Below are positions 195-32,662 of a stretch of 37,002 nt of DNA, in pieces; position 1 is the first letter of the stretch, and every line of letters starts with the position of its first letter. The position numbers and the translations under genes were made by a program. This DNA is from a virus, in IMG/VR virus record IMGVR_UViG_3300010293_000017, positions 1 to 37,002 of that record. One strand, written 5' to 3'. The notes beneath the pieces were generated by a model, which made no database searches, was not told where the DNA came from, and saw nothing but the letters and a program-made list of their open reading frames with translations.

Positions 195-938
195 ATGAGA
201 TTCTTAACGGAACGTACAATACTGTCAATGATTGGCAGTATATCAACTAAAAATCAGTACATAGAAACTCTTGAGAAAGTTCTAAAGCTTAATCAAGATA
301 AAACAGTGTATAGTTATATTGATGTCATAAACATAGTTGAAGATTATGGTATTGGTTGCAAGGGATCATGTAGAACATGTATCTGTTCAAACTTTGTTTG
401 TGATTTATGTGTTCATTTACTATTCAATACATGTTCACTGAGTTATCCATGCATAGAAAACAAAACATACGATGCAGTTTTTGATTCAAGACTTGTAAAA
501 TCTGCATGCGAAGATACAATACGTGCAATATACAACAGAATATGCTATCTTGATAATTTACATAAAACATTCTTAGAGCATTGCTTGAATAATTATGGTG
601 AGTTTAGACCAATAATCATTATTAATAATTCGATATATCAGATAGTTGACTCTACCCATGTAATAAATCTTGGATATCTGAAGATATCTGGGAGACATCA
701 TGCAATGCATATTAGAGAGTTTAGTGATGCAGATTATGTTGAGTTGTTGCCATTTATGTCAGATCATAAAAACTATGTAAGATCTGTAGTTGTTGATGAC
801 AATATACTTAATGTGTATAATGGAAAAGATGTTGTGAAGACAGTTAGATTGTGCAATATGGAGTATGTAAACAATCTTTATCAAGATATATTAAAATCAA
901 TGCAATATGAAACACTACTGGAGGCAAAAAATGATTGA
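195..938 (+). CDS. Cys-rich early protein of unknown function
   Basis: This 247-residue protein starts at an ATG preceded by taggagacaaa. Residues 55-86 hold eight cysteines (55, 59, 62, 64, 69, 72, 80, 86), enough for two zinc sites or an iron-sulfur cluster; the rest is mixed alpha/beta without a motif I recognise. It overlaps the next gene by 8 bp. I infer a metal-stabilised domain from the cysteine spacing; the role is unknown. Confidence 0.75.
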   Translation: MRFLTERTILSMIGSISTKNQYIETLEKVLKLNQDKTVYSYIDVINIVEDYGIGCKGSCRTCICSNFVCDLCVHLLFNTCSLSYPCIENKTYDAVFDSRLVKSACEDTIRAIYNRICYLDNLHKTFLEHCLNNYGEFRPIIIINNSIYQIVDSTHVINLGYLKISGRHHAMHIREFSDADYVELLPFMSDHKNYVRSVVVDDNILNVYNGKDVVKTVRLCNMEYVNNLYQDILKSMQYETLLEAKND

Positions 939-1563
939 TGTGTTAACTATTGATAAAAGAGATATTGATAAAGCAGAATCAATAATGAGTGAACTGAAAA
1001 AAGAGTTTACTGTTGATTTTGATTTTGTTCATACATCTATTGATGATAAAATGATTGTTTTTGGTATGAGTAATTCATCTGAGATAGATTACTATTCTTG
1101 GGTTCTCCATAGGGGATTGTTTCATTCATCTTCAAACATGAGAATATTGGTAGACAGTTTTGATGGAGCTCAGAAATTCAAATCTGCACACGATAAGTGT
1201 ATAAATAAGTATGGATACATTCTTGCAGATCCAGAACTATCAAAACATATAACAAATGATATAAAAATTGATGAAACAAAATTTCAGTTGCCACAGTATG
1301 TTGTTGATAAAAGTAAATATGGCATGACTAAACTGTTAGCAAATTTTTACAATAAAGAATATGTTATAGGATATACTGTTTCTCACTGGCATGTATCAAG
1401 ATTAAAGAATGGATCATATCTTAATACAGAGTTTTTTTTCCATCCTGTTGATATTAAGAATGGTGACATTCATTGTGTTAATAAATGTACATCATTCATA
1501 TCTGTAATGACTTATGTTGATAACCTAAAAAATAGTATTGAGAAAAACAACAAGGAGAAATAA
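931..1563 (+). CDS. Hypothetical early protein
   Basis: I place the start at the ATG at 931, because GGAGG at 920-924 sits six bases before it; a longer frame from 907 has no such signal. The 210-residue product is soluble, mixed charge, with no transmembrane segment or recognised motif. It ends at 1563, sharing one base with the next ATG (TAATG), so the two genes are translationally coupled. Confidence 0.75.
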   Translation: MIDVLTIDKRDIDKAESIMSELKKEFTVDFDFVHTSIDDKMIVFGMSNSSEIDYYSWVLHRGLFHSSSNMRILVDSFDGAQKFKSAHDKCINKYGYILADPELSKHITNDIKIDETKFQLPQYVVDKSKYGMTKLLANFYNKEYVIGYTVSHWHVSRLKNGSYLNTEFFFHPVDIKNGDIHCVNKCTSFISVMTYVDNLKNSIEKNNKEK

Positions 1564-1883
1564 TGGAAAAGATTACAGCGTATTACTGCAAACATTGCAA
1601 AAAACTATTCCGTAGAAACAAACATTTCTGTTTCAAAGATGTTGCAAATAAGGCGTGTGCAACTTGTGATCACTATAATGGAACAGATACAATAGATGTA
1701 TCTAATGGTTTGTTTAGTGTGAAAAATACTGTTAGTTTGTGTAATTACAATTATGAAGATCATATTATAGCTGAACATAATTATTCTGGAAAGTTCAATG
1801 TTCCGTTTAAGAAAATAAATGGCTTCAGAGGTTATATGTGTGATTGGTGGAAAAAGAGAAAGGATATTAAAGATGAGAAATAA
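1563..1883 (+). CDS. Probable zinc-ribbon protein
   Basis: This 106-residue protein has an N-terminal CKHC pair (residues 9-12) followed by further Cys and His residues and a CATCDHY segment near residue 32, a spacing that fits a zinc ribbon. The C-terminus is basic (WWKKRKD). A good ribosome binding site (aaggagaaat) precedes the ATG, which overlaps the previous stop by one base. It is one of several small metal-binding proteins in this operon; nucleic-acid binding is plausible but not shown. Confidence 0.7.
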   Translation: MEKITAYYCKHCKKLFRRNKHFCFKDVANKACATCDHYNGTDTIDVSNGLFSVKNTVSLCNYNYEDHIIAEHNYSGKFNVPFKKINGFRGYMCDWWKKRKDIKDEK

Positions 1884-3653: not shown

Positions 3654-3851
3654 ATGAAAAGTCAAGACAAATGTCCAATCTGTGGCGAGGTAATTACTGC
3701 TGAGGTTGAAGATTCTGGTTTTGAAAGATATGATATGGATCAACTACATGAGGCTATATGTTATGCAGTAGGCTATCATATAATTACTACACACATAGAC
3801 AAAAACGACAATATCTGTATGGATATAATAAAAGAAAAGGAGATGACATGA
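3654..3851 (+). CDS. Small zinc finger, paralogue of the gene at 36126-36356
   Basis: This 65-residue protein starts with KCPICGEV and ends its conserved part with AVGYHIITTH, so two Cys and two His can bind one zinc ion. The same layout (CPYC ... ALGYHILNNH) occurs in the small gene next to the terminase at 36126-36356, and the last 17 residues of the shared block have eight identities. gagaggagtaaaaca precedes the ATG, and the TGA overlaps the next ATG by four bases. Confidence 0.7.
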   Translation: MKSQDKCPICGEVITAEVEDSGFERYDMDQLHEAICYAVGYHIITTHIDKNDNICMDIIKEKEMT

Positions 3852-4783
3852 AAATCATCAACTCAAGCAACATTCCAGAGCCTGTTTTCAGAGCTTTGTG
3901 TGCAAACTGGTACAGTGGAGAAAAAGAGGAAAGAGATTTCAGTATAACTGAGATACTTAATCCAACAAGGCTTAACATCTTGAAAAAGAGATACTACGAT
4001 CAGATTGAAGTTGATGCAATGTCTAGATTTTGGGCTATGCTCGGATCTAGTATGCACAACATTCTTGAAGTCGGTATCAAAAAGTATGAAGATTTTATGA
4101 GATCAGAAGGTAAATTCGAGAAAGATCTTGGATTAAAGTTTGTTGCAGAGAAAAGATTTGCAAGCATATTCAATAATGATATTCTTGTATCTGGAGGATG
4201 TGATATCTATGATCCAAACACTCAAACTATCTATGATTACAAGTATCAAACAGTATTCAATTGGGTAAACATATCTGATAAAATTGAAGATCTGACATTT
4301 CAGTTAAATGGATACAGAATCCTTTTCCAGAGAAACGGATATAGGGTAAAAAATATGTCTGTTATATTCATTTTCAGAGACTTCAGACCATACGAAATAA
4401 ACAGATACAAGGACTATCCAACTGAAAAGATCAAAGAATTAAGTATCAGAGATATGCCAGATGAAGAGTTCTTTGAAATACTTGAGAAAAAGTATCATGA
4501 GAAAATCATGTACGAATCTTTACCAGATAGTGAATTGCCATTATGTACAAAGAAAGAAATGTGGCAAGGAGATGATCAGTACAAGGTTTATTCTTCATCT
4601 GGAAAATGTGTAAAAATATATGACAATCTTGATGATGCAAATAATCATGCAGATAAGGATGGATATTATGTAAAGAAATTTATTCAAGAACCTAAGAGAT
4701 GTGGTCAATACTGTGATGCATCATCAGTTTGTGATCAATGGAAAAAAATAAAGGAAGAACTTGATGAGCAAGATCGGATATGA
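3848..4783 (+). CDS. Cas4/RecB-like PD-(D/E)XK nuclease with C-terminal Cys cluster
   Basis: The ATG at 3848 follows AAGGAG and gives a 311-residue protein. GSSMH (H70) matches the His of motif I, SGGCDIYD supplies the acidic residue (D119), TIYDYKYQT the D130-x-K132 pair, and FQLNGY (Q152, Y156) the QxxxY helix. C233 and the C-terminal C285, C289 and C295 resemble the four cysteines that hold an iron-sulfur cluster in Cas4/AddB-type nucleases. It is probably a recombination or DNA-processing exonuclease acting with the helicase and resolvase downstream. There are no cas genes, so it is not part of a CRISPR system here. Confidence 0.8.
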   Translation: MKIINSSNIPEPVFRALCANWYSGEKEERDFSITEILNPTRLNILKKRYYDQIEVDAMSRFWAMLGSSMHNILEVGIKKYEDFMRSEGKFEKDLGLKFVAEKRFASIFNNDILVSGGCDIYDPNTQTIYDYKYQTVFNWVNISDKIEDLTFQLNGYRILFQRNGYRVKNMSVIFIFRDFRPYEINRYKDYPTEKIKELSIRDMPDEEFFEILEKKYHEKIMYESLPDSELPLCTKKEMWQGDDQYKVYSSSGKCVKIYDNLDDANNHADKDGYYVKKFIQEPKRCGQYCDASSVCDQWKKIKEELDEQDRI

Positions 4784-9710: not shown

Positions 9711-10094
9711 ATGGAATCATTAAAAAACAACAACATATCGGTATCATCTAAGTTTAGAGACTATGGAGACATATCTATAGTATCTGGATCAATATCAAGA
9801 TCAATCAAATGCGAAGATTCAGAAATGTTAGAAAAGATGATTGATAAGTGTCTATCGTATGACGATCTTCTTTTGTTAAGAACAATGGTTTATACGTTTG
9901 GAAGTTCGGAAAACATAGTGTACATGAATAAAAAAATAGCAAACCATGACAGATGTTCTCATTGTGGACACAAATTGAATGTTGAGTTCTTAAATGTGTA
10001 TGAAACATTTAATGAAAAGGTTGTAGATATTTTAAACATAATAAATGAGGTAATGGATGCAAACTATAAACTCGAATGTCCAACATATCTCTAG
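9711..10094 (+). CDS. Zinc-ribbon-like hypothetical protein
   Basis: The ATG at 9711 has AGAGG seven bases upstream; an upstream in-frame ATG at 9645 lies inside the MazG gene and has no such signal. The 127-residue product is helical, with RCSHCGHKLN at residues 81-90; the second metal pair is not obvious. Its 3' end overlaps the methyltransferase start by 38 bp. No family is recognised. Confidence 0.6.
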   Translation: MESLKNNNISVSSKFRDYGDISIVSGSISRSIKCEDSEMLEKMIDKCLSYDDLLLLRTMVYTFGSSENIVYMNKKIANHDRCSHCGHKLNVEFLNVYETFNEKVVDILNIINEVMDANYKLECPTYL

Positions 10095-11022
10095 TAGCAA
10101 TATGATAAATAAATTACATCATGGAGATGCGTTGCAAATACTCAAGACATTTCCAGATGAATCAATAGATTGTTGCGTAACATCACCTCCATACTGGAAT
10201 CTAAGAGACTATGAATCTGATGGTCAACTCGGACTTGAAGGAACATTTACAGAATATGTCAACAAGCTATGTGATATCTTCGATGAGGTTAAAAGAGTTC
10301 TCAAAAAAACTGGAACTATTTGGGTAAACATTGGAGATACATATTATGGAAGTACTAAAGTAAAAACCGATAAATCAACTGCTGTTGACGAAAAAGGAAA
10401 CAAACTTGTTCTAAGCAAAAAGTCATTGTGTCTTGTTCCAGACAGATTCGCAATAGAAATGTTAAACAGGGGATGGATTCTCAGAAACAGAATAATTTGG
10501 TACAAACCAGCAATTCTTCCAAGAGCACTTACAGACAGATTCCAAATTGATTTTGAAGATGTTTTCTTTTTCACAAAAGAAGATAATTATCTGTTTGAGC
10601 AACAATATGAGAAATTTCTAACTTATACGGTTGATCCAAATGCAACTACAGATGGAACAAAGTATTCTGAAGAAACAATAACTGTAAGCAGTAAGTCAAT
10701 GTCAAAGTTTGCAGAAAAAAGAGCAAATGGAGAAGTTGAAGGGAGAATAAAAAGATGTGTATGGAAAATAAACACATCTAATAGTAAATCGTATCACGTA
10801 GCACCATATCCAGAAGATTTAATTATACCAATGGTAAAAGCTGGATGTCCAGAAAATGGAGTTGTGTTAGATATATTTATGGGTACTGGAACTACTGCAG
10901 TTGTTGCATTAAAGCAAGGAAAAAACTTTGTTGGAATTGATATTGATAATCGAGCAATATCTGAAGCACAAAAGAGAATAGATGCGTTTTTAGATCAAAG
11001 AACTATATTTGATCTAATATAA
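10057..11022 (+). CDS. Site-specific DNA methyltransferase, beta class (N4-C or N6-A)
   Basis: The 321-residue protein begins with HHGDALQIL and the catalytic motif TSPPYW (42-47), and has the SAM-binding FMGTG (274-278) plus GIDIDN near its C-terminus; motif IV before motif I defines the beta group. SPPY is the form seen in N4-cytosine enzymes, but adenine cannot be excluded. The WYKPAILPRALTDRF segment is typical of phage members. GAGG lies six bases before the ATG. No restriction endonuclease is adjacent, so it is an orphan methylase that probably protects phage DNA. It closes the early operon. Confidence 0.85.
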   Translation: MQTINSNVQHISSSNMINKLHHGDALQILKTFPDESIDCCVTSPPYWNLRDYESDGQLGLEGTFTEYVNKLCDIFDEVKRVLKKTGTIWVNIGDTYYGSTKVKTDKSTAVDEKGNKLVLSKKSLCLVPDRFAIEMLNRGWILRNRIIWYKPAILPRALTDRFQIDFEDVFFFTKEDNYLFEQQYEKFLTYTVDPNATTDGTKYSEETITVSSKSMSKFAEKRANGEVEGRIKRCVWKINTSNSKSYHVAPYPEDLIIPMVKAGCPENGVVLDIFMGTGTTAVVALKQGKNFVGIDIDNRAISEAQKRIDAFLDQRTIFDLI

Positions 11023-12642: not shown

Positions 12643-12669
12643 GTGAGTACGCTATTCTCACATTTTTTT
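12643..12669 (+). terminator. Intrinsic terminator of the rightward transcripts
   Basis: GTGAG (12643-12647) and CTCAC (12657-12661) form a five-base-pair stem with a nine-base loop, followed by ATTTTTTT. It lies just after the last + strand gene and directly abuts the amidase stop codon on the other strand. The short stem suggests modest efficiency unless the upstream inverted repeat helps. Confidence 0.55.
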
Positions 12670-13138
12670 ATTTTATTCTATCTCTCACAAAGTTTTTAAC
12701 ATTAAAGTTTGGACATGTTTTACCTTTCTGTACATCACAATGACCAAGAATATTCTCTCTTTTTATGTTAAAGGTTTTCATTAAATTTTTTAATACATTT
12801 TCAAGAGAGTTAATCTGTTTTAACGTAAATCTTGTTTTTCCTATTAAGCATATAGATATTGAATTTCCATTATATCCAACTGCATGAGCACCTATTTCAT
12901 TTCCAACTAGGTACCCATCACCATCAAAATCTCTACCATACTCAATAGATCCATCCATAGATTCTATGTATAGTTTCTTTTGTACATTTTTGATATCTGG
13001 CTTAAGCAATCCATTTAATATAACCAATTGATAACCAATATCTCTCCATCCGTTTGCAAGATGCCACTTTCTTATTTCAGATGCAGTTCCCCAATCCGAA
13101 TCAGAACAATGTACGATTATGTATTCAATTTTAGGCAT
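12668..13138 (-). CDS. N-acetylmuramoyl-L-alanine amidase (endolysin)
   Basis: The start is the ATG at 13138: GGAG lies six bases upstream and is itself part of an earlier in-frame ATG at 13150. The 156-residue protein has the amidase_2 / T7-lysozyme layout: IIVHCS (H10), a W...GYQ segment, GAHAVGYN (H85), GHCDV (H133) and K140-x-C142 in GKTCPNF. H10, H133 and C142 are the expected zinc ligands. It cleaves the glycan-peptide bond of peptidoglycan. There is no signal peptide or cell-wall-binding domain, so release through a holin is expected. It is the last gene of the late operon. Confidence 0.9.
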   Translation of the reverse strand: MPKIEYIIVHCSDSDWGTASEIRKWHLANGWRDIGYQLVILNGLLKPDIKNVQKKLYIESMDGSIEYGRDFDGDGYLVGNEIGAHAVGYNGNSISICLIGKTRFTLKQINSLENVLKNLMKTFNIKRENILGHCDVQKGKTCPNFNVKNFVRDRIK

Positions 13139-13745
13139 TTTGTTCTCCATAAATAATGTTGTTAAACTTTAATTCTCCGTTAATATCTTCGATGATTGTA
13201 TAATCAAACAATCTTCTATCGTTATGAAAAACGCTATTTTTAGCATAATTTACTATCTCCATGATTGCATATTCTGTTTTCAGATATTGACATATTGCAT
13301 CAGATACAGACTTTGCAACTGTCCTATATTTTAAATGCATTAGGTTTACTCCATAACTTGTTTTGCAATCAACTGTTTCATACGATCCTTTTCCTTTTTT
13401 CATTATTCCAATTAGAATCGGATATGATTGAGATAAATACGTATCCATTCCACTTGATAGCTTAAGATAGTTTTTATATCTACCTGGCAACATTATTGTT
13501 TTGTATTTGGATGTATCGTCTATCAATAAGCCATCATCTGTAGCTTTTGTAGTTCCAATGTATTCACGATAAACATTTATGTCTCCTATCTTCATTATTA
13601 TGCAGAAAATATCGTTGTGTACACCTTTTCTTTTACACTCCCTTCTTATTCCAATTATGTTTGGATAGTAGTCAGTGCTATTTAATTCAACACCAGATTT
13701 TTCTATCTGATATTTACTATAAATGTTTCTTATCATCTTTGACAT
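13131..13745 (-). CDS. Possible peptidoglycan-related protein (L,D-transpeptidase-like, tentative)
   Basis: The 204-residue protein has an order of motifs reminiscent of a phage protein family found beside amidases: a YREYIGTTKATDDG block, MLPGRYKNYLKL, then GVNLMH followed by SVSDAICQYL. The His and the later Ser/Cys recall the H...S.GC signature of YkuD-type L,D-transpeptidases, but the Gly is missing and spacing is short. It overlaps the amidase gene by 8 bp, which supports a cell-wall role. The alternative is an unknown tail-associated protein. Confidence 0.35.
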   Translation of the reverse strand: MSKMIRNIYSKYQIEKSGVELNSTDYYPNIIGIRRECKRKGVHNDIFCIIMKIGDINVYREYIGTTKATDDGLLIDDTSKYKTIMLPGRYKNYLKLSSGMDTYLSQSYPILIGIMKKGKGSYETVDCKTSYGVNLMHLKYRTVAKSVSDAICQYLKTEYAIMEIVNYAKNSVFHNDRRLFDYTIIEDINGELKFNNIIYGEQNA

Positions 13746-14470
13746 TACTTATCATCCTTCGGAAGATCTTTACCGAGAACAGGTCTCTGATTCTTGACAA
13801 AAAATTCTTCAACATCTTTTGACATAAATACATCATATATTTTATCGCCTGTATTTGTTATGGAATTTCTTATTGCTTTTCTAAATAAGCATACACTATT
13901 ACATAATCCACAAAGTACACAATTATGACATATTATCGGACACCTAGGATAGTCAACAGATTTTCCGTTACTAATTGAAAGTATGTTTGAGAAATCGCTA
14001 TTTTCCTGTTTACATAATCCAAAACTACTTGCCATAAATTGACATGGATATTCTTTGTTCATAATTATTGAATAACTTGGCATAACATCTGTTTCAAATG
14101 AAAAATTACATGCATTTGATTCTACAATAAGTAATCCAACATCTGACAGCTCCGATTCACCGTATGTTATGTTTTTAACATGGCTTACTCCAATTAAATG
14201 AGAAAAGTTTTTATCATAAATATATTCAAACATTTCTTTCATTCCTGCAACATACTCTGCTCCACTTACAAATGGAACTGAGTTTGTTTGCATTACATAC
14301 GTTATTTCAGTTTTTTTCTCATATATTTCAAAAGACCTATTGTCGTCAGAAAACTTACTTGGATCTACAATTAAAAGTATATCTAAAAGACACCTTTCTC
14401 TCTTACACAATCTTTCATCTACATATAAATATGCATTATCTTTAGGTCTGTATTGCTTTGATCCACCCAT
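13745..14470 (-). CDS. Tail-region protein with ferredoxin-type Cys cluster
   Basis: The 241-residue protein carries six cysteines at 177, 181, 184, 187, 190 and 194. C184-x2-C187-x2-C190-x3-C194 is the classic [4Fe-4S] ferredoxin spacing (CVLCGLCNSVC). Five more cysteines (22, 27, 121, 143, 153) are scattered upstream. The rest is mixed alpha/beta without a recognised fold. It lies between the fibre gene and the lysis genes. Lambda gpL shows that a phage tail tip can hold an Fe-S cluster, but no sequence similarity to gpL is claimed. GGAG precedes the ATG. Confidence 0.6.
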   Translation of the reverse strand: MGGSKQYRPKDNAYLYVDERLCKRERCLLDILLIVDPSKFSDDNRSFEIYEKKTEITYVMQTNSVPFVSGAEYVAGMKEMFEYIYDKNFSHLIGVSHVKNITYGESELSDVGLLIVESNACNFSFETDVMPSYSIIMNKEYPCQFMASSFGLCKQENSDFSNILSISNGKSVDYPRCPIICHNCVLCGLCNSVCLFRKAIRNSITNTGDKIYDVFMSKDVEEFFVKNQRPVLGKDLPKDDK

Positions 14471-14487
14471 CTTATCTCCAGATATAT

Positions 14488-15702
14488 TTATTTTCTAAGT
14501 ATCATTCCACTATTTGTATCAGAATAGAACATCTCAGATATGTAACTAGCTACTGCATCCATTTCATTTTGACTTAACAATCCAGATTGCTTTGACAAAA
14601 GTTTTGTTTCAATTCTTTTATCTGATTTTGCCCACCATCCAGATACTGTAAATGGGTTAATAAATCTATAACTACATGCAATTACGTAATCACCAGCTGG
14701 CAATACTGGCTTGTTTATTATTAACGATCTTGTAGATGATCTTTGAATTACTGGACTTGGCAAATCACTTAAAACGCCATTGTCTATAGTTGGAACTGCA
14801 AATCCATTAGGTATAAAACCATACAAGAACTCAAAATCTCCAGTTATGCTTGCACTCTCACTAGGTATTATTGTTAATGTAACTGTACCACCATTATCTG
14901 TAATAATTGGCACAGAGCTGTTTGATGGATTGATGTTTGCAAGGTTTGGATATATTGTATCTATACTATTTTGACCACTTGCTATTTGTGCAACAGTTCC
15001 AATCTTAACAGATGATATACCTGCACTATTCATAAGGAAATATCCAAAATGAATATACTTACCAGCTGCGTATTTATCACTAACTTTTGGCAACATTATG
15101 AATGGACTCTTTGAAATTCCTTGAACTACGTAATTGTCGGTTATTTCACTTACGGAAACAACTCCTCTAGAGCTACACGTAACTGTAGATGCACCAGATG
15201 TATCTTTAAGATAGTAATAGAATATGTATGATGCATCTAATGGGATTGTATTTGGTGATGCTATTGAAAGTTTGACAAACAAGTTTAATGATACAGATAG
15301 CGATATATCTGGCATTGTACTTGGAAATCCAGACGTTGAAATCAGATTTGATACTTGTTGAAATGCAACTGCATCTCCAGATTGAGTTCCGCCACCTAAA
15401 TTTACAATCTTTCTTGCATTCATGTCAAGATTAAGATTATTTGTGATCTTTGGATTACCAGATGAATCAGTAAAAAACATTTGACCATTTGATATAAACA
15501 TTCTATTAGCTGTGTTCGACATTGTTCCATCTACAGATAACGAAAAATATCTAGACTGGGTAACTACAAATTGCCAAACAGATGTTTCAGGTACATTAGT
15601 TCCAGTTATTTCAACTCCACCAGAAACCAAGTTTCCATTGCTGTCAACTTCTTTCAATACTGCATTTGATGCACTTTGAATTGTGATATAAATCTTATTC
15701 AT
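14488..15702 (-). CDS. Tail fibre / receptor-binding protein candidate
   Basis: The 404-residue protein contains LNLDMNARKIVNLGGGTQSGDAVAF (about 91-115; shown here only as its LDMNARKIVNLGG core), the L.M...KI.NL......DAV motif seen in many tail fibres just before the receptor-binding part. The sequence is Ser/Thr/Gly-rich and beta-like, with little charge. It follows the tail hub genes, the usual place for a fibre. cataaaggagaacaa precedes the ATG. Receptor specificity cannot be read from the sequence. Confidence 0.7.
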   Translation of the reverse strand: MNKIYITIQSASNAVLKEVDSNGNLVSGGVEITGTNVPETSVWQFVVTQSRYFSLSVDGTMSNTANRMFISNGQMFFTDSSGNPKITNNLNLDMNARKIVNLGGGTQSGDAVAFQQVSNLISTSGFPSTMPDISLSVSLNLFVKLSIASPNTIPLDASYIFYYYLKDTSGASTVTCSSRGVVSVSEITDNYVVQGISKSPFIMLPKVSDKYAAGKYIHFGYFLMNSAGISSVKIGTVAQIASGQNSIDTIYPNLANINPSNSSVPIITDNGGTVTLTIIPSESASITGDFEFLYGFIPNGFAVPTIDNGVLSDLPSPVIQRSSTRSLIINKPVLPAGDYVIACSYRFINPFTVSGWWAKSDKRIETKLLSKQSGLLSQNEMDAVASYISEMFYSDTNSGMILRK

Positions 15703-16228: not shown

Positions 16229-18050
16229 ATCCGCTTACTCCTGTTTCTAAATCTTCATTGCTTACACTTACTATGATAATATCAATATTATCTGGAAATT
16301 CCATATATCCATTTGACGATATTGAGTTCATGTTAGTAAACCTAATTATATCACCAACAGATATCTTTTCATTTAATACATTTGATATTGATATATCATA
16401 TTTATTATTTATACCTTCTGGAACTATATCTATCATAGATAGTATTGATTTTTTAATTCCAGATTGTTTCCAATTAACAACATCCTCTATTGATTTCATG
16501 TCTGGTTTTTCATAATATTCTTTAGTGCTTTTGATAGACGTAATATATCTTCCATTTATACTTTTTGAAATACCATTTTGAATTATCAATCTTCTCCATA
16601 TCAGTAAACTTCCATCAGAATATATCGTACTAACATGAGACAATAAAAGTATTTTTATTGCATCTGTCGTTGTCACATCTGAGACAAATCCCATGTTTGC
16701 AATGTTGACTATGTTTAATATGTTTTGTGGCAAAGTGTCTCCATTAACGTAATTAAATATAGCTGACAGTGTTGTGGTTCTTTGATATATGTGATTATGC
16801 GGCAGATTGTGTCCCCACTCATCTTCATACAATATACAATTATGACTATCGTATGAATTAAACAATGCATTAAGTTCACTAGATGGCATTTCATACTCTG
16901 TTCTTAATGTTTGCCAATATACCAATCCAACTCCACCAACCTCCAACATAAACTCAGTTTTGATAACATAGTAATCCCAATGTAAATACAATTCAAGAAA
17001 CGTTAATATTATGCTATTACCAATAATCTTTCTATACCAGTATCTTTGATCTTCAAAGTAGGGTATCATGCTGTTTCCAGCTGGTCTGAATATGTAGATA
17101 CCATCTCTTGGTTCATCAATAAACTGAATAGCTGGATAACCATTCCCATTGTTTATCACTACAGAATAAACAGTAGGAAGTGACTCTATAGAATGATCTC
17201 CTTGAGGATAGTAAACACCTCTTTCATGTTTTAACTGTATAGATAGATCAACATCTTCAAACACAAGCATTGGTATATAAAAATATGAAGATATTTGTGG
17301 ATACATATTACTTATTAGTAAGTGTGGAATATCATAAATGTCTTTCAACATCAAACCACTATTGGCAACTTCTTGAAAATAAGATTGATGATCTCCAATC
17401 TTGTTCATGCATGATATAAGTATTCCAGTTATGTCTATAAACGATAAACTTATGTCTTTTGTTTTTCCATCAAAGGAAAATGAAGATATCTCTAAAACTC
17501 CAGTAAATATAAGCAAATTGTTATTGTAAATGTTTGCAATTGCATTATAGAGAAATGGCTGTTCTATCACATATTCATTCTCAACTGCAACATAAGGTTC
17601 TTCATACCAGTACCTAGCTGGAATAAAAACGTGTTTCATTTCAACATTATCTGGATTATATTTACATGGAAATATGTATTTTCCTTGATGATACATACTG
17701 TGAGTATTTACTGTTCTTTGAACAAATGGATTTATGAATTTTATCCATCTATTTATTTGATTTCCATTATGATCCATATCATATTCTGTTTGACCAAGAG
17801 AGTTTACATCAATAAGATCTGTCATCTCATTTAATTGAACAAGATTGTTATCAAATAAACCGATACAATGATTCAATGTAACTGAACACTTTCTTTCGTT
17901 TATCATAAGATTATCTCTGTCTATCATCTGAGATGGATCTATTGATATGTTTTTTACATAACTAGTTACGTCAGCCACAAACAAACTGTCGATAGATCCA
18001 CTTGTATTGTCTGGATTGACAAACGTTATTATCATTCTATTTTTATTCAT
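16218..18050 (-). CDS. Tail hub / tail-associated protein candidate
   Basis: The 610-residue protein is directly downstream of the tape measure, the position of the distal tail or tail-associated hub in siphoviruses. Its start (FVNPDNTSGSID...VTSYV) and the NIYNNNLLIFTGVLEISSF segment, where a hub strand pairs with a second domain, fit baseplate-hub proteins that begin with a definition of plane or offset. No peptidase motif is visible. It starts at 18050, one base into the tape-measure stop region. The function is inferred from gene order. Confidence 0.55.
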   Translation of the reverse strand: MNKNRMIITFVNPDNTSGSIDSLFVADVTSYVKNISIDPSQMIDRDNLMINERKCSVTLNHCIGLFDNNLVQLNEMTDLIDVNSLGQTEYDMDHNGNQINRWIKFINPFVQRTVNTHSMYHQGKYIFPCKYNPDNVEMKHVFIPARYWYEEPYVAVENEYVIEQPFLYNAIANIYNNNLLIFTGVLEISSFSFDGKTKDISLSFIDITGILISCMNKIGDHQSYFQEVANSGLMLKDIYDIPHLLISNMYPQISSYFYIPMLVFEDVDLSIQLKHERGVYYPQGDHSIESLPTVYSVVINNGNGYPAIQFIDEPRDGIYIFRPAGNSMIPYFEDQRYWYRKIIGNSIILTFLELYLHWDYYVIKTEFMLEVGGVGLVYWQTLRTEYEMPSSELNALFNSYDSHNCILYEDEWGHNLPHNHIYQRTTTLSAIFNYVNGDTLPQNILNIVNIANMGFVSDVTTTDAIKILLLSHVSTIYSDGSLLIWRRLIIQNGISKSINGRYITSIKSTKEYYEKPDMKSIEDVVNWKQSGIKKSILSMIDIVPEGINNKYDISISNVLNEKISVGDIIRFTNMNSISSNGYMEFPDNIDIIIVSVSNEDLETGVSGYAI

Positions 18051-21000
18051 TAGAAACCTCTCATCATCCTTTGACCTCTAACTGTTTTTTTGAATAGTTT
18101 TACATCAGACAAAACTTCTCCAGTAAACGTAGCTTGAATGTCAATATCTCCAACTTTTTTTATCAGTGCGTCAAGTTTTTTAGGCAGAATATCATTATGT
18201 GGATTAAAGCTTTGTTTTGTTTCAAGCATTCTTTGTACAGTATAAAGTATTGCTTCATTACCAGCAACTGCTTTTTTACTAAACATAAACTCTCCACCTT
18301 CTGCTTCTATGTTTACACCTTTATTATGATGAGATGCACCATATATTTTTCCACCTTTTCCAAACTTTTGTTTAGATGCAAGAGCTATCTGACCAGCTCC
18401 CATACCACCAATAAAAGCAGCTGGAATTAAACCTAATGGAAAACCAAAATCTTTCATTGCCCTCATAATGGCAGAACCTGTATTGAAAATAATTTCAGCA
18501 ATAGACATTGATCGTTTTGCTTCAGTTAACGCTCTTTCTTTTCTAATTCTTCTTTTATCAAGTTTTTCTTTTTCCTTTTCTAACCAAAGAGATGATCTGT
18601 ACTCATATTTTGCCCTATTGTCAACTCTTTTTACTTGGTTATCATACCACTCTTTTATCTTATCCATTTGCCAAGAATAGAACATAGTCCACATTTCTTT
18701 CATTGCATCAATTGATGTTTTTAGTGTTTTCTTTCTATCTTCCATGATTTCATTTTCGAGATTTATTATTTCTTGTTCGTTGGCATGCAAATCTTCATCA
18801 CTCATATACCCATAGTTAGCTTTGTTTGCATACGCATCATCAAGTTTCTGTTGCTTAACATTTTTTTCATACTGCTCTCTATTTATATCAATAAATAATG
18901 CATCAACTATTCCGCTAAATGACACATTGCCACTAAAAAGATCTCTATAAGATGATTCATTATTATGTAGAATATCTTGCATTTCAAACAATCTTCTTTC
19001 GTTTTCTTTTTTAATTGCAGACATTTTTTCGTCAAATTTCTTGATATAATCATCAGCTAAAGATTTTGCATCACTTGGTAAAAATGGAGTTAATAAGAAT
19101 TTATCTATAACAGACCTACTTGCTTTACCTAAAACAAGACTATATCCAGTTTCATAATTCATAAAATTTTCAAAAATCCACTGTTCGACAATGTTTTTCT
19201 TGCCTGTTTTGTTTCCTTCATGTTCTTTTATCATCTTTTCTAATGTTGTTATTACGTTTCCTTTAGATGATAATATACTTTCAAAATCAGCAAGAAATTT
19301 TCCAGATCCAAGTGATTGTAGTTTATATTTTTTACTACCAGATTGATAAACAATATCGTTCCCATCTATAAACAGTTTTGTTCTTTCTACCCACCTAAAT
19401 TCATTAGCATTGAATTTATCTATATCGAATGCCATGTATTGAGACATGTTAAGAAGTATCTCATTCATAACAACATCCATTTCTTTTTTAATAGAATCTT
19501 CTTCATAAGATGCTTCTGCAGATTCCATTTGCTTGTTCAACACTGTCATTATTCTTGACAATCTTTCTTTTTTGTTATTGTATATCCAGTTAACAAAATC
19601 GATAACAGCTCTGTCCCTTTCATCTTTATCAGTAATTTTTTTTAATACATCTATTCCTTTTTGAAAAAGCTCTTTTTCCTTTTGTCTTTCGCCATTAACA
19701 ATATTTGAAAAATCTTCTACATTTACACTTTCAAATCTTCTTTCATATTCATCTGTAATTACTTTAAGTAGATTTTTATATTCGTATTGACCACCACCAT
19801 CATCATCACCACCAGATCTGTTAACAATTCGTCTGCTTAAATCTTCTTTATTAAGATTAGATACAACTAAAGATGCTTTATCTATTTCTTCATCTAGTGC
19901 TGATATAATGTTACTTAATTCATGTATTTTTTTTATGTTATTGATAACGCTTTTTGGTATTTTTACTGCACTATGAACAAAAACAGTAGGTCCCTGGGGA
20001 TCAAGTATAGCACCATATTTCTCTTTAATTTTTTCTACTATACTACCTTGTGCAGCACCAACTGACATTTCATTTTTATCATCACTCATCCATGTTTTTA
20101 TCACATCGTCAAGTGCATTGTTAATGTCTTTAATAATATTATCTTTATCTTTTTTTGATAAATTGTCTGTAAAGCCACTTCTTGAAAGTAACTTACCTTT
20201 TATTACATCGCCTACCTTCTTTTTTATCTTATCTACATCATCTGTTATGTTTGTGCGTAATTCCAATATCTCTGTTTCAGTTTCTGAAGATTTTGAAATC
20301 ATTGCATTTATCTTTCCAACTATTTTAGCAATCTTTAGATTATTGTTTAATGCAATAGTTGTATTATTTATTGCATTTTTTACTCCATCCCAAGATGTTG
20401 CAATATTATCAAGAGACATTTGTTCTATTTTAAGCTCTGAGAAATATTTTGGATACTCTTTTTGTAGCTCTCCAAGATTTCTTTTCACATCTTTTAATAT
20501 CGCTACTTTTCTTGCCTCTGATGTTGTTGATTCGTCAAGTACTTTTTTGTTTTGAATAAGAGATTTTATTCTTATTTCATACATCTTCATGACTTTTTTA
20601 TCTTCTTCCAAATAACTTATAGTGGTTATCTCTATGTCTTTCATTACTTGATCTAAGCTTTCGATAGATTTTTTTGCCGCAGTTGCTTTTTCCACAAAAT
20701 CCCAAATAACGGCACTAAGAAGAGACAATGCGATACCAACAATTGGAAAAGAAAGTGCAGCTATCTTTCTTGTAGCTGTCATCTGTATGTTCAATAGTGC
20801 AGCTGCAGCTGCAGTAGCATTTAATGATTTTTTCATTGCATTTAATGCTATTGTGAATAAACCAATAGCTCCAGCTGTAACTATTACTTTTGATCCAAGA
20901 CCACTAAACACTGTAATGATTCCGTTTAGTAATCCTTGTAGTTTTATTATGATAGGTATAAATCCTTCTGACATTTTCAATGTGTTTACAACAAGTTCTT

Positions 21001-24000
21001 GTTTAAGTTTTTTTAACTTAAACTCTGCACCTTCCATTATCTCGTTCAGTGCCTCTTGTGTTGATCCATATGAGTTAGTTATCTGATTGTGAAACGATAA
21101 AAACTTTGATGTATCGTTTATACCAGTTGCAAGAGCCTTAAATGCCCTAACGTTTCCAGATATAGCCATAATCTGTCTTTCATTTGCATTTTCAAGTTTT
21201 TTCAATAGACCATACAAACCTTCTGCTTTTATTGCTGATGAATCCATTGATATTCCAAGTTCTTTTGCTATTTGTCTAGTTTCTTTAGTTCCACCTCTTG
21301 CAAAGTTTGTCATAAGTCTGTTCAATGCAGTCATTGCTTGATCTGTTTTGATTCCCTGATTTGTCATTATTGCAAGAGATGTAGATATATCTTCAAGAGA
21401 TACACCAAGCAAAGCTCCTGTACTTGCAACATTACCAAAACCCTTTCCAAGATCTTGTATTGTCGTTCTCCCATATTTGACTAACTGGAAAAACATATCA
21501 GATGCCCTAGATATGTTATCTACAGATAATCCATAGGCATTCACAACTGATATTAGGAGATCTGTAGCATCTGCTTGTGATGATAGACCAGCAGTTGCCA
21601 TTTTTGTAGATTCTTCCAATGTTCTTTGACCAGAACTACCAGTAATTTGTGCAGATTGTATTGCATACATTGCCTTACCTAAATCATCTAGTGTTTGACC
21701 GTATGTCGCAGATAAATTAAGAATGGTATTTTTAATATTATCAACTGATGCTTTTTCAAACTCATTCATAATTGATTTTAATCTTGCCAGTTCATTGTTA
21801 AGTTTTACTGCCTCATTATAGCCACTCTGTAGTTCAGATTTTATCTTATTTACAGTTCCATACGAAAACATTGCAGTAAGAACAAATGTTATTCTGGATG
21901 CAAGCTTTTCTAGAGATACATATTCTTTTATTACTTCAAGTACACCTTTTTTGTGTGATTGTTTTGATTGAATTAAGACATTAGCTCTTGCAATATGCTC
22001 TTGAGTAATATGTTTTTCTTTTTCAAGTTCAAATGTACTTATATCAAGAGAGTCTAGTTTAAGTTTATACTCTTCATATTCAAGCCTGTACTGTTCTCTT
22101 TCCTTGTCGTTTATTGCATGATTTATTTTATACTCATGCTCTTTCATTGCTGTTCTTTTCTGATCATACAGCAATCTATCTTTTCCCATAGCAAACAGAT
22201 TTGCTTCAATTTCCTCTTCAATCTTTGACTGTCTTACCATGAGTTCTTTTTTTGCAATCAATATCTGAGTAAGGTTTACCTTCATTCCTTCTGATACAAG
22301 AACTTGTTGATCTATTGTTGCCATAGCCAACTTTATTTTCTCTTCTCTTTCTATGCCAGAAAGTCTTGCTTGGGCTATTTTTTCCTCTTCGGATATTGAT
22401 TCTTTTTCTTTTTTCTTTGCCTCTGAGACAACTTTTGATGATACTTTTTTTTCTGTATTAACTGCCTCCTTGTTTTGCAACTTCATCTCAGATCTATACT
22501 CTTTTGTCAATGCAATAATTTTTTCTAGATCTGCAATCTCTTGGGACATTGCTTTAATTCTTTCTAAATGATGAGCATCATCTTTATCTATTCCGCTTAC
22601 TTGTTTAACATCAAGAGATCTGTCTGCTTTTAATTTTTTTATTTTCTCTTGATATTGTTTTAACATAATAGATATAAGTTCATCACTTTTCCCAGAGTAC
22701 GTTGATGCGACATCTTCCATTGATATACTACTAGTTGCACTTTTTGCAGAATGTAATGCCCTGTTTTTTGCTCTCCTTTGTGCAGATGTTATTTTCTTTG
22801 GAATTTCTGCAAATTCAAGCATTGCTTTTCCCATTTCTTCCATTTCTGCATCTGTTAAAAATATCTTTTCTCTCGATGAGAACTTTTTCGATATTTTTCT
22901 CAGGTTTTCAAGTGTATTGATAATAGCATCTGTTTCGTTTGTTTGAAATGTAAAACCTTCTAATTTTCTAATGTACTTATCTATAGTTTGATCATTAAAG
23001 TTTGCAGGAACATCATAAATCTTTTTTCCTTCCCGCATTGCATTAAACTCACTTTCTGAAACTATATTGTACTTTCTGTTCAACAGTTCTCTATATCTTA
23101 ATATGTCTTGTTGTTTTGCTACGCCTTCAGTAGTAAAGTTTATTAACTCTTCTTGATTCATTTTGTACGGTTTATTTCTCGTATAGAAATCAATAAGGTC
23201 TTTTTCTCTCTCTTTCAAAACATCTGCAACTTGTTTAGCTGATGCTTTATTGTTAATAAACAGTATATCCTTGAACACTTTTGCAAGATCGTCTGAATCA
23301 GCTAACACATCTGCTCTTACTCTTGCAGATTGAACATTTTTCATTGCTCCCTGAGCTGCCCTGTTATCACGATCCTCTTTTGCAAGTAATGCTTTTGCTT
23401 CTCTCATCTGAGTAAGTGTTTTCTTTATACTGTCTCTCTCTGTAATCAAAAATGCCAATTCTTGTTCATTTTTATTTAACTCTGTTTTTGACCTTTCAGA
23501 ACCACTAGCTCCAGTAGCTACCTTTTCCAATACCTTAATTTTTTCTAATAGTTCATGTATTCTTTTACCAATCTTTATCTCTTCATCTTTATATGTCATT
23601 ATCACTTTGTCTCTTACTTGTGGAGACATAGTTTTAAAAACAGTTCCTATCGCATCACCAACTCTACCAGACATTCCTTGAAAGTTTTTTATGTTTCTAC
23701 TTAATGCAGATCTCATTCTATCATTAAATGAACTGAATACTTCAACATATTCTCTTGTCAATTCATCTATATGAAGTCCTTTGATATTTCCCTCAGATCT
23801 AAGTTTACGAATATGCTCTCTTGCTCTTTTGATTGTGAGATAAATGTCTCTTACTTCACTCTCAATAATAACATCATCAGTATTTTTCATCTCTCTATAT
23901 GCGATTCCTTGCATTTTCTTGAGATTTTTGTCTGTCATTGTTTTTGGAATACTAATAGATGTCTGACTTACAGTGTTAAAGTAATCATATGGAGAACTGT

Positions 24001-24274
24001 TTTTTGACATTGCTTTTCTAAGTTCTTCATATTTATTCATTTCAAAAAGAAGATTTCTGATATATTCTATTGATTTTTGTATTCCAGATCCAGTGCTTAC
24101 GTCAAATACAACTTTATTATTCTTTAGATTGCTCAATATAGTTGATACGCCAGCAATTTCTGATAATTTATTAAAATCAAGAGATGATATAGCTGATGCA
24201 ACTCCCTTAATAGATCTTGCAAGTTCTCCAGATCCTTGAGTTTCCCAGACAATCTTTAATTTATTTTCAGCCAT
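18050..24274 (-). CDS. Tail tape-measure protein
   Basis: The 2074-residue protein is the longest gene. Residues up to about 800 are coiled-coil rich (charged heptads). The conserved tape-measure domain spans about 840-1060, with GFGNVASTGALLGVSLEDIS and ALNRLMTNFARGG-type segments. Hydrophobic helices follow at about 1105-1195. Near the end, GGKIYGASHHNKGVNIEAEG and GGEFMFSKKA match the GG...G..H..GGV.IEAEGGE motif of this family. It sets tail length; by the usual 0.15 nm per residue this suggests a tail near 300 nm. taggagcacta precedes the ATG. Confidence 0.95.
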   Translation of the reverse strand: MAENKLKIVWETQGSGELARSIKGVASAISSLDFNKLSEIAGVSTILSNLKNNKVVFDVSTGSGIQKSIEYIRNLLFEMNKYEELRKAMSKNSSPYDYFNTVSQTSISIPKTMTDKNLKKMQGIAYREMKNTDDVIIESEVRDIYLTIKRAREHIRKLRSEGNIKGLHIDELTREYVEVFSSFNDRMRSALSRNIKNFQGMSGRVGDAIGTVFKTMSPQVRDKVIMTYKDEEIKIGKRIHELLEKIKVLEKVATGASGSERSKTELNKNEQELAFLITERDSIKKTLTQMREAKALLAKEDRDNRAAQGAMKNVQSARVRADVLADSDDLAKVFKDILFINNKASAKQVADVLKEREKDLIDFYTRNKPYKMNQEELINFTTEGVAKQQDILRYRELLNRKYNIVSESEFNAMREGKKIYDVPANFNDQTIDKYIRKLEGFTFQTNETDAIINTLENLRKISKKFSSREKIFLTDAEMEEMGKAMLEFAEIPKKITSAQRRAKNRALHSAKSATSSISMEDVASTYSGKSDELISIMLKQYQEKIKKLKADRSLDVKQVSGIDKDDAHHLERIKAMSQEIADLEKIIALTKEYRSEMKLQNKEAVNTEKKVSSKVVSEAKKKEKESISEEEKIAQARLSGIEREEKIKLAMATIDQQVLVSEGMKVNLTQILIAKKELMVRQSKIEEEIEANLFAMGKDRLLYDQKRTAMKEHEYKINHAINDKEREQYRLEYEEYKLKLDSLDISTFELEKEKHITQEHIARANVLIQSKQSHKKGVLEVIKEYVSLEKLASRITFVLTAMFSYGTVNKIKSELQSGYNEAVKLNNELARLKSIMNEFEKASVDNIKNTILNLSATYGQTLDDLGKAMYAIQSAQITGSSGQRTLEESTKMATAGLSSQADATDLLISVVNAYGLSVDNISRASDMFFQLVKYGRTTIQDLGKGFGNVASTGALLGVSLEDISTSLAIMTNQGIKTDQAMTALNRLMTNFARGGTKETRQIAKELGISMDSSAIKAEGLYGLLKKLENANERQIMAISGNVRAFKALATGINDTSKFLSFHNQITNSYGSTQEALNEIMEGAEFKLKKLKQELVVNTLKMSEGFIPIIIKLQGLLNGIITVFSGLGSKVIVTAGAIGLFTIALNAMKKSLNATAAAAALLNIQMTATRKIAALSFPIVGIALSLLSAVIWDFVEKATAAKKSIESLDQVMKDIEITTISYLEEDKKVMKMYEIRIKSLIQNKKVLDESTTSEARKVAILKDVKRNLGELQKEYPKYFSELKIEQMSLDNIATSWDGVKNAINNTTIALNNNLKIAKIVGKINAMISKSSETETEILELRTNITDDVDKIKKKVGDVIKGKLLSRSGFTDNLSKKDKDNIIKDINNALDDVIKTWMSDDKNEMSVGAAQGSIVEKIKEKYGAILDPQGPTVFVHSAVKIPKSVINNIKKIHELSNIISALDEEIDKASLVVSNLNKEDLSRRIVNRSGGDDDGGGQYEYKNLLKVITDEYERRFESVNVEDFSNIVNGERQKEKELFQKGIDVLKKITDKDERDRAVIDFVNWIYNNKKERLSRIMTVLNKQMESAEASYEEDSIKKEMDVVMNEILLNMSQYMAFDIDKFNANEFRWVERTKLFIDGNDIVYQSGSKKYKLQSLGSGKFLADFESILSSKGNVITTLEKMIKEHEGNKTGKKNIVEQWIFENFMNYETGYSLVLGKASRSVIDKFLLTPFLPSDAKSLADDYIKKFDEKMSAIKKENERRLFEMQDILHNNESSYRDLFSGNVSFSGIVDALFIDINREQYEKNVKQQKLDDAYANKANYGYMSDEDLHANEQEIINLENEIMEDRKKTLKTSIDAMKEMWTMFYSWQMDKIKEWYDNQVKRVDNRAKYEYRSSLWLEKEKEKLDKRRIRKERALTEAKRSMSIAEIIFNTGSAIMRAMKDFGFPLGLIPAAFIGGMGAGQIALASKQKFGKGGKIYGASHHNKGVNIEAEGGEFMFSKKAVAGNEAILYTVQRMLETKQSFNPHNDILPKKLDALIKKVGDIDIQATFTGEVLSDVKLFKKTVRGQRMMRGF

Positions 24275-29816: not shown

Positions 29817-31760
29817 TTATGCCCCAACGGTTAATGTCATTTTAGTTGACGGAGAGCATACGCCATTGAAGAATGCTACTACATAGTATGTTCCGTTTGC
29901 CAAACTAGAAAGATTAACGTTCTCTGCTCTTGTTTCAAGCACTGCAAGTCCATAGGAATCAAGGTTTGCTGATGTAGTAGAATAATATATCTCTGAACCA
30001 GGAGTATCACAGAAGATATATGAACTTGGATTAGCTGCCTTGCTGATCGCAACTGCACTTGCACTTGATCCAATACGAGTTCCAATAATTTCTTTGCTTG
30101 TGGATATGATCAGATCTTCACATTGGAATGTGCATCCAGTGCCCTGAGCAATTGCAAACTTACCTGGATTTCTGATTCCAAAGTTTTGGTACATGTGGTA
30201 TGTATATTTGTATCCCTCACCACCTGTTTCCAATCTTTCTTCATACTTTCGTACAAAAGAGAAGATGTCTTGAGTTGCAATACGAAACTCTTGAGTTGCA
30301 GGTCCAAAAACTATAACACCACCATTGTTCATTGATTTTGCAAACGGTACTATAACTATTGGGAATCCACGATATTCAAGATTGGTAACTCCACCAACGA
30401 TTCTGTTCTCTCTTGTTTCAGTTGCCATAGGGATGATCTTTCCATCTACGGTAATATGAATTGGAGTTCTTAATGCTTGTGCATAAAGCGATGCATCTGT
30501 TCTGCTCATTTGAAATTCGTACATTCCATCATCGACAGAATAATCTTCATTTGACTTGTCAATAAGAATATCCATAATGTTTTGCATATCGAAGTATTCA
30601 AACTTGTTTATGGCTCTGTCAAGAAGAATGTTGTCAACTATAAATCCATTGTTTGCAGATACTTGTGCACATGTGATACGAACTCTTACACCCTTCATAC
30701 TCATAGAATTGAATGAAACAGATACCTTTTTTGCATTTGTGGTAAGAGCTAATGCATTTGAAGATGCGACTACGTTCCCAGCTAAATCAAGAACAATAAC
30801 AGTTCCAGTTCCAGTTCCACCTGTCATTTTCAAATCTGCAGAAAGAACATATTTAACGTTCTCAATTAACTCAATAACGTTATTGTATGTGCAATTTCCA
30901 CCTGTCCATGAAGTTCCAGTCCAGTTCAAAACACCACCTGACACAGCTAATGATCCTGCAGATGCAGTGTACAACGCAGCTGTATCAGATCCAAAAATAT
31001 CACTAAACGGAGTAATGAAACGAATCAATGGGGCATTTACTTTAACTGGAGTTACGAGTTTTCCGTATTTACCAACAAAACGACTTATTCCAGATGGCAA
31101 TGTTTTGATACCTTTTGATTCTGCAATTTGCAAAGAAAAGGATTTTGCAAGACGATAGAAATCACCACCAGAGAAGTCATTGTTAGTTCCGTTTACGGCA
31201 AGTCTTGTCAAATCGTTTGAGATCTCCCTGCTAAAGAACATTTCAAGACGTTGTTCAAAATCTGGATCATAAAGATACTGTCTAATAACTTCAATTGGAA
31301 GATCGATCTGTCTTTCAACATGTGGAACATAGATCTCATTACCAAAGATAACGGCATGATTAGCTCTCTTTGCTTTTACAATATCATTTGCTTGTGGATC
31401 ACTTGCAATACGTTGAGTATCGACAAGTTGTTCTGGAATACCTGTCCACATGTCAATTGGAACGATATTTGTGTTATGAGAAATCTTTGGTATTCTTTCC
31501 AAGAACCATGATGTATCGTTAATTAGATATACCTGCTCTCTAGCTGGCAATCCTTGAAAATGTCTGGCTCTTGTAAAATCTGCAAAACCATAATTGGTAT
31601 CGGTTTCAGCTTTGAAAACAGTTCCATCCATAGATGCTACATCATAACCAGCATTATGAAGCATAGCTGCAGCTAATGGATTTACATAGCTTTTCGAGAC
31701 AGGTTCTGTGCTTTTTGGAAGAGCATCATTAAGAGCTTTGATAATTTCGGCAATAGTCAT
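29817..31760 (-). CDS. Major capsid protein with two extra domains
   Basis: The 647-residue protein has the capsid region up to about residue 245 and from about 386 to 545 (TGIPEQLVDTQRI and a VPFAKSMNNGGVIVFG segment of the HK97-like fold). Residues about 258-385 form an inserted Gly/Ser/Thr-rich beta domain with a jelly-roll, carbohydrate-binding style. Residues about 560-647 (YIFCDTPGSEIYYSTT ... TMTLTVGA-type end) look like an Ig-like or chitobiase-C-terminal-like domain. gtaggaggaata precedes the ATG. It lies after the protease in the normal head order. Head-fibre or decoration functions for the extra domains are inferred. Confidence 0.8.
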   Translation of the reverse strand: MTIAEIIKALNDALPKSTEPVSKSYVNPLAAAMLHNAGYDVASMDGTVFKAETDTNYGFADFTRARHFQGLPAREQVYLINDTSWFLERIPKISHNTNIVPIDMWTGIPEQLVDTQRIASDPQANDIVKAKRANHAVIFGNEIYVPHVERQIDLPIEVIRQYLYDPDFEQRLEMFFSREISNDLTRLAVNGTNNDFSGGDFYRLAKSFSLQIAESKGIKTLPSGISRFVGKYGKLVTPVKVNAPLIRFITPFSDIFGSDTAALYTASAGSLAVSGGVLNWTGTSWTGGNCTYNNVIELIENVKYVLSADLKMTGGTGTGTVIVLDLAGNVVASSNALALTTNAKKVSVSFNSMSMKGVRVRITCAQVSANNGFIVDNILLDRAINKFEYFDMQNIMDILIDKSNEDYSVDDGMYEFQMSRTDASLYAQALRTPIHITVDGKIIPMATETRENRIVGGVTNLEYRGFPIVIVPFAKSMNNGGVIVFGPATQEFRIATQDIFSFVRKYEERLETGGEGYKYTYHMYQNFGIRNPGKFAIAQGTGCTFQCEDLIISTSKEIIGTRIGSSASAVAISKAANPSSYIFCDTPGSEIYYSTTSANLDSYGLAVLETRAENVNLSSLANGTYYVVAFFNGVCSPSTKMTLTVGA

Positions 31761-31771
31761 TATTCCTCCTA

Positions 31772-32104
31772 CTATACCATTCTTGATTTTTTAGTTACGT
31801 TGTCTGTTTTTTCATCTTCTGATCCATTGTTTCTCTCACCATGAGCTTTAACAACAGCATCAACAACTTCTTGAAGTTTCTTTGAGATTGTTTCGTCGAT
31901 CTTTCCCATAGACTTTGATACATGTTTTTCAATCATGCTTTCAATTGATTCAAGAGTGACCAAATCAGCTGATTTCTTAATACCATCAACAAGATTTTTA
32001 ATCAATACAATGTCTGCATTTTCGTTTACAGACTTTGCAATCAATTCAATCTTTTCTTTGATTACCGCAATCTCACCATTCAAGGCTTTTACGAGTTCAT
32101 CCAT
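31772..32104 (-). CDS. Nested scaffold protein (internal start)
   Basis: Met187 of the protease gene is preceded by GGAGG (32114-32110) and a five-base spacer, better than most genuine starts here. The resulting 110-residue protein is the coiled-coil part alone. This is the lambda C/Nu3 arrangement, where scaffold is made from an internal start in the protease gene at higher molar amounts. The frame is the same as the parent gene, so no extra stop is needed. Confidence 0.6.
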   Translation of the reverse strand: MDELVKALNGEIAVIKEKIELIAKSVNENADIVLIKNLVDGIKKSADLVTLESIESMIEKHVSKSMGKIDETISKKLQEVVDAVVKAHGERNNGSEDEKTDNVTKKSRMV

Positions 32105-32662
32105 GTTTTCCTCCACTGGATTTAGTAATGTTTTTATTGTATTGTATATTGTTTCTATTGCGTCATTAAATGACTTTTCTCTTTCGACTTTTGCAGTTCC
32201 ATACAAAGAATATCCAGTAATTTTTCCTTTCTTTATGTTTTCCCATACATCATCTGATGGAATACTTGCAATAATCCATGTTCCCTTCTTGATCTTTTCT
32301 CCATTTATCTCAAAGTCAACAGGTGCCACATAACTTTCTGCTATCTCACCAGCACCATCTTTCATATTATGATTAACATCCATATTCCTGTATTTAATCA
32401 TAAAATCATCAGCTGCCTTTTCGATTGTTTCTGCATCAGCCCAATCTCCATGTGCATCTACAATGTCAGGAGCATATACTATTCCATAAACCTTTTTCTT
32501 GTCTCCATCTTTTGAACAGAGCAATCTAACGTCTATTGAAAAGTCTGGTTCTCCAACATCTTCTTGCTTCATAAGATAAAATGTTCTCATGTTAGCAGCT
32601 GAATCAACATATGAAACTTTAGTTACTTGGAGATCTCTCAATCTTCTTTTTTTTCTTGCCAT
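31772..32662 (-). CDS. Prohead protease (XkdF/U35-like) fused to scaffold
   Basis: Residues 55-160 match the XkdF-like serine-protease family: GIVYAPDIVDAHGDWADAET (H71), VNHNM (H98), GEIAESYVAP, IKKGTWIIASIP and ITGYSLYG (S152), giving a His-Ser-His type set. Residues 190-275 are coiled coil and act as scaffold. It lies between portal and capsid, the usual spot. ggagataggagagtttaaca precedes the ATG. A second in-frame start inside it (32104) should give a separate scaffold; that product is listed on its own. Confidence 0.85.
   Translation of the reverse strand: MARKKRRLRDLQVTKVSYVDSAANMRTFYLMKQEDVGEPDFSIDVRLLCSKDGDKKKVYGIVYAPDIVDAHGDWADAETIEKAADDFMIKYRNMDVNHNMKDGAGEIAESYVAPVDFEINGEKIKKGTWIIASIPSDDVWENIKKGKITGYSLYGTAKVEREKSFNDAIETIYNTIKTLLNPVEENMDELVKALNGEIAVIKEKIELIAKSVNENADIVLIKNLVDGIKKSADLVTLESIESMIEKHVSKSMGKIDETISKKLQEVVDAVVKAHGERNNGSEDEKTDNVTKKSRMV

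Follow-up and report, generated by a model that had tools for sequence, protein, structure and literature searches.

The late gene at 13745-14470 encodes a protein in which six cysteines lie close together, four of them spaced as in ferredoxins. This raises the question of whether the cluster holds iron and sulphur, zinc or no metal, and whether the protein is part of the phage tail, as an earlier note on this DNA supposed. The window is the whole stretch analysed, a virus record of 37,002 bases (IMGVR_UViG_3300010293_000017, positions 1-37,002). The best explanation, to which we give a probability of about 0.5, is that the gene encodes an orphan protein of the late operon with a C-terminal Cys cluster that most likely binds one [4Fe-4S] cluster.

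The gene, its operon and its phage

The late genes and signals used in the argument are as follows.

34044-35540, minus strand: terminase, late gene
32665-34044, minus strand: portal, late gene
31772-32662, minus strand: protease, late gene
18050-24274, minus strand: tape measure of 2074 aa, late gene
14488-15702, minus strand: fibre-like protein of 404 aa, the upstream neighbour (phrog_4242 tail fiber, E 2.4e-4, over a short stretch only, 88-119)
14476-14479, minus strand: Shine-Dalgarno GGAG of gene 13745-14470, just upstream of its ATG
13745-14470, minus strand: orphan late gene (241 aa, 27.5 kDa, pI 5.35, 11 Cys)
13743-13747, minus strand: TAATG overlap, joining the stop of gene 13745-14470 to the start of the next gene
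13131-13745, minus strand: downstream neighbour of 204 aa, with no match in any library searched
12668-13150, minus strand: N-acetylmuramoyl-L-alanine amidase (endolysin; Amidase_2 E 7.6e-15, phrog_822 E 1.2e-33)

The open reading frame is a genuine gene. The ribosome site GGAG, the TAATG overlap and a codon score of 0.24, which is that of other phage genes (the five other frames score from -0.14 to -0.86), together identify it as a real, translationally coupled member of the late operon. The minus-strand late order is terminase, portal, protease, tape measure, a 610-aa protein, a 171-aa protein, the fibre-like protein, 13745-14470, the 204-aa protein and the amidase, which makes this the fourth gene after the tape measure, past the fibre gene. 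Its position between fibre and lysis genes, as described in the earlier note, therefore stands, with the fibre-like gene at 14488-15702 on one side and the amidase at 12668-13150 on the other. The 610-aa and 171-aa proteins between the tape measure and the fibre-like gene have no significant match. The tape measure contains no Cys and occupies 17% of the 37-kb genome, and a 647-aa protein at 29817-31760 on the minus strand sits in the slot expected for the major capsid protein, after the protease, with no match in Pfam or PHROGs.

No relative of the 241-aa protein is found in Pfam, PHROGs, NCBIfam, PADLOC or the PDB sequences, and tblastn searches of phage and plasmid collections return no homologue. 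The same is true of 89 phage records, mostly relatives by terminase, and of 786 bacterial genomes, comprising 395 from the phylum to which a Bacteroidaceae MAG belongs and 391 from the class that includes a Clostridia MAG. Two genome matches with E values slightly under 0.001 were discarded: one is antisense to a xylanase-like gene, and the other runs through two stop codons and does not cover the Cys cluster. Viral and genome contigs scanned for sequence patterns, a method that detects close relatives only, so that distant ones may exist, also give no homologue. No credible gene of the viral or genome contig collections has all six Cys in exactly this arrangement with CP and CG, all matches of the Cys-motif scan being low-complexity or out-of-frame, and the six clustered Cys have no counterpart in phages with related terminases.

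The collections used contain no close relative of the phage. For the terminase, identity reaches no more than 37-39% with sequences in IMG/VR and 36% with a human gut phage contig, and the tail proteins searched have no homologues except for a conserved stretch of the tape measure. Since the window encodes a peptidoglycan amidase, the phage probably infects a bacterium, despite a DNA methyltransferase (10057-11022, plus strand) whose best match in the phage collection, at 45%, is to Methanobacterium virus Drs3. Shine-Dalgarno-like sites are present at most genes throughout the window, and the nearest terminases, in our reading, resemble those of Bacteroidota phages.

The cysteine cluster

Two overlapping features within the gene concern the cluster.

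13889-13942, minus strand: six-Cys cluster C177-C194, 18 residues, with spacing x3,x2,x2,x2,x3
13889-13921, minus strand: ferredoxin-type half motif CVLCGLCNSVC (C184-C194), which agrees with the ferredoxin 4Fe-4S signature except at the last position (L195)

The eleven Cys of the 241-aa protein are at positions 22, 27, 121, 143, 153, 177, 181, 184, 187, 190 and 194, and the cluster reads C177-P-I-I-C181-H-N-C184-V-L-C187-G-L-C190-N-S-V-C194. The translation of 13745-14470 thus contains both things that the earlier note had reported, the array C184-x2-C187-x2-C190-x3-C194 and two further Cys ahead of it, C177 and C181. The motif is not a product of chance. In shuffles of the protein that keep its composition, CX2CX2CX3C appears in 121 of 200,000, and 495 of 200,000 place six Cys in a stretch of 19 residues. 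CX2CX2CX3C is absent from all other ORFs of the window. In a set of 2544 unique ORFs (at least 100 aa) taken from retrieved phage loci, it occurs in only two, both of them Cys-repeat proteins in loci brought in by the motif scan itself.

Iron-sulphur, zinc or no metal

The ferredoxin 4Fe-4S signature has Pro, Glu or Gly after the final Cys, and CVLCGLCNSVC fits it at all positions but this one, where Leu follows C194. A [4Fe-4S] cluster, as proposed in the earlier note, is plausible, given the spacing, the behaviour of control genes and a weak profile match; the final residue departs from the signature and the scores lie below cut-offs. Of ten scanned bacterial genes with CX2CX2CX3C, nine carry Fer4 domains, a rate that describes cellular genes chosen partly for CxxCG from long ORFs and may not suit a phage orphan. 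In a Clostridia genome the motif is found 67 times, against four in the reversed control. The whole 241-aa protein has no Fer4 match and every family match is under curated cut-offs, including a weak one to NCBIfam FwdF (E 0.0011, far below its cut-off). A 64-residue fragment matches Fer4_8 (PF13183) at E 0.0056 and 17.6 bits, below the 27-bit gathering cut-off, and nine Cys-preserving shuffles of this fragment give no Fe-S family match at E up to 1; with nine shuffles only, the signal is suggestive, not strong. The protein resembles Fer4 in CxxCGxCxxxC, in hydrophobic residues at the usual places and in this profile match, but differs from it in Leu after C194, in having one motif, in its score and in the extra C177 and C181 upstream, and no homology between the two is shown. 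AlphaFold models predicted without relatives have pLDDT 33 for the whole protein and 37 for residues 135-241 and are unusable.

The main rival to [4Fe-4S] is zinc: the six Cys could form a structural zinc thiolate site of one or two ions in an ordinary zinc-binding accessory protein of the phage, a reading that we consider possible and, on balance, doubtful. The symmetric spacing could hold a two-zinc cluster, the tenth control gene of the same spacing is a CxxCxxCC protein with a putative zinc- or iron-chelating domain, and the phage has other Cys-pair proteins that resemble zinc ribbons (1563-1883, with CxxC at 9 and 32, and 195-938, with 12 Cys). The 241-aa protein shares dense CxxC spacing with the CxxCxxCC family (Pfam PF03692) but gives no match to its profile, and zinc-finger families match neither the protein nor the fragment. 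Three Cys at i, i+3 and i+6 are a poor fit to a single mononuclear zinc site. The earlier note had raised a zinc knuckle, but the spacing CX2CX4HX4C is absent, none of the three CxxC pairs being followed by a His at the position needed, and among the control genes CxxCGxCxxxC is typical of Fe-S proteins. That the Cys bind no metal, being free or disulphide-bonded, and that the likeness to ferredoxins is accidental, would suit an AT-rich orphan phage gene in which a second motif is absent and family matches are all sub-threshold. This is improbable, however, as the motif is rare in shuffles even at such a Cys content and the Fer4_8 match exceeds those of the Cys-preserving shuffles. A radical SAM site was considered for CPIICHNC and rejected: such sites open a barrel domain and show a CX3CX2C motif whose third Cys is preceded by an aromatic residue. 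The spacing of CPIICHNC agrees, but its third Cys comes after Asn, only 57 residues remain beyond it and there is no profile match.

If the cluster is of the [4Fe-4S] type, then the protein may be described in two parts, an N-terminal part of about 170 residues of unassigned fold and the C-terminal Cys cluster. The type of the cluster and its ligands are inferred: C184, C187 and C190 (CxxCGxC) would supply three, with C194 or an earlier Cys, for example C177, as the fourth. This last ligand is uncertain here because ferredoxin motifs of the CxxCGxCxxxC kind commonly share ligands between two clusters. Many control proteins have two motifs, whereas the 241-aa protein has neither a second Cys motif nor a Cys-Pro past C194; its sole Cys-Pro is C177-P178, upstream of the motif, and C143 and C153 could serve as a distal ligand. 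The cluster might hold the fold in place or serve as a site sensitive to redox state or oxygen. If iron and sulphur are indeed bound, the phage would have a late protein whose ferredoxin-like site differs from that of lambda gpL, and one that offers a test case for why phages place oxygen-sensitive cofactors in late proteins, something that even for lambda has no explanation; if the metal is zinc, the gene is an ordinary orphan.

Location of the protein and other Cys-bearing proteins of the phage

The role and location of the protein are guesses. It could be made in the cell alongside the fibre and the endolysin, for example as an accessory to assembly or lysis. The earlier note had called it a tail-region protein; that it is a tail protein is not supported, as nothing connects it with the virion, and the structural genes differ from it in Cys content. 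At 4.6%, the content is nearly six times the 0.82% of the other late genes (binomial P = 7e-6), and 11 Cys in 241 residues give a binomial P of 0.03 at the early-gene rate of 2.34%. This make-up, nearer to that of early, intracellular proteins than to that of structural ones, argues mildly against a tail role. The argument is weakened by the terminase and the amidase, which are not virion proteins and have about 2% Cys, and by the helicase, which has only 0.9%.

A location in the virion has precedents in lambda gpL and the RcGTA hub, which bear Fe-S clusters at the tail tip. A tail-tip protein with an Fe-S cluster that stabilises the tip, similar to gpL in its working but unrelated to it, would agree with a gene whose immediate predecessor in the tail section of the late operon codes for a fibre-like protein, and with a Cys cluster in the C-terminal part, as in gpL and the RcGTA hub. 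We hold this to be a minority reading, and an unlikely one. In lambda the gpL gene lies between the tape measure, which it follows closely, and the hub gene, whereas 13745-14470 comes after the fibre gene, four genes past the tape measure. The gpL cluster is formed by Cys173, Cys182, Cys205 and Cys212, a spacing of 8, 22 and 6 (PMC10721106), compared to 3, 2, 2, 2 and 3 in the 241-aa protein. The gpL-spaced pattern of four Cys is absent from the 241-aa protein, and no gpL-family profile matches it in Pfam, PHROGs or NCBIfam. The protein is not a gpL, and in this the earlier note, which had found sequence and gene position to differ, was right on Cys spacing, profile and position alike. The RcGTA hub likewise has a four-Cys cluster (PMC7296036), a feature missing from some siphophage hubs (PMC13243795), and even in lambda the function of the Fe-S cluster remains uncharacterised (PMC10721106). 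A redox- or iron-dependent step in adsorption, as the earlier note envisaged, has no support. In its fullest form, by which a ferredoxin-type [4Fe-4S] was acquired independently by a tail-tip protein other than gpL and the phage adsorbs or ejects its genome depending on the state of the cluster (oxygen, iron, redox), the proposal is very improbable indeed.

Other proteins of the phage also have grouped Cys. The first early gene (195-938, plus strand) encodes 247 aa, 12 of which are Cys, and eight of these fall in residues 55-86 (CKGSCRTCICSNFVCDLC...); it shares CX3CX2C with the 241-aa protein, the two have no sequence similarity on testing, and the search for relatives of 195-938 found none. 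The 106-aa early protein at 1563-1883 (plus strand) has CxxC pairs at 9-12 and 32-35 and the look of a zinc ribbon, with no family match. The phage exonuclease at 3758-4783 (plus strand; phrog_2139, E 9e-47) has four C-terminal Cys, C263 and C315-x3-C319-x5-C325, an arrangement that recalls Fe-S nucleases of the Cas4/AddB kind, so the phage may have a second Fe-S protein.
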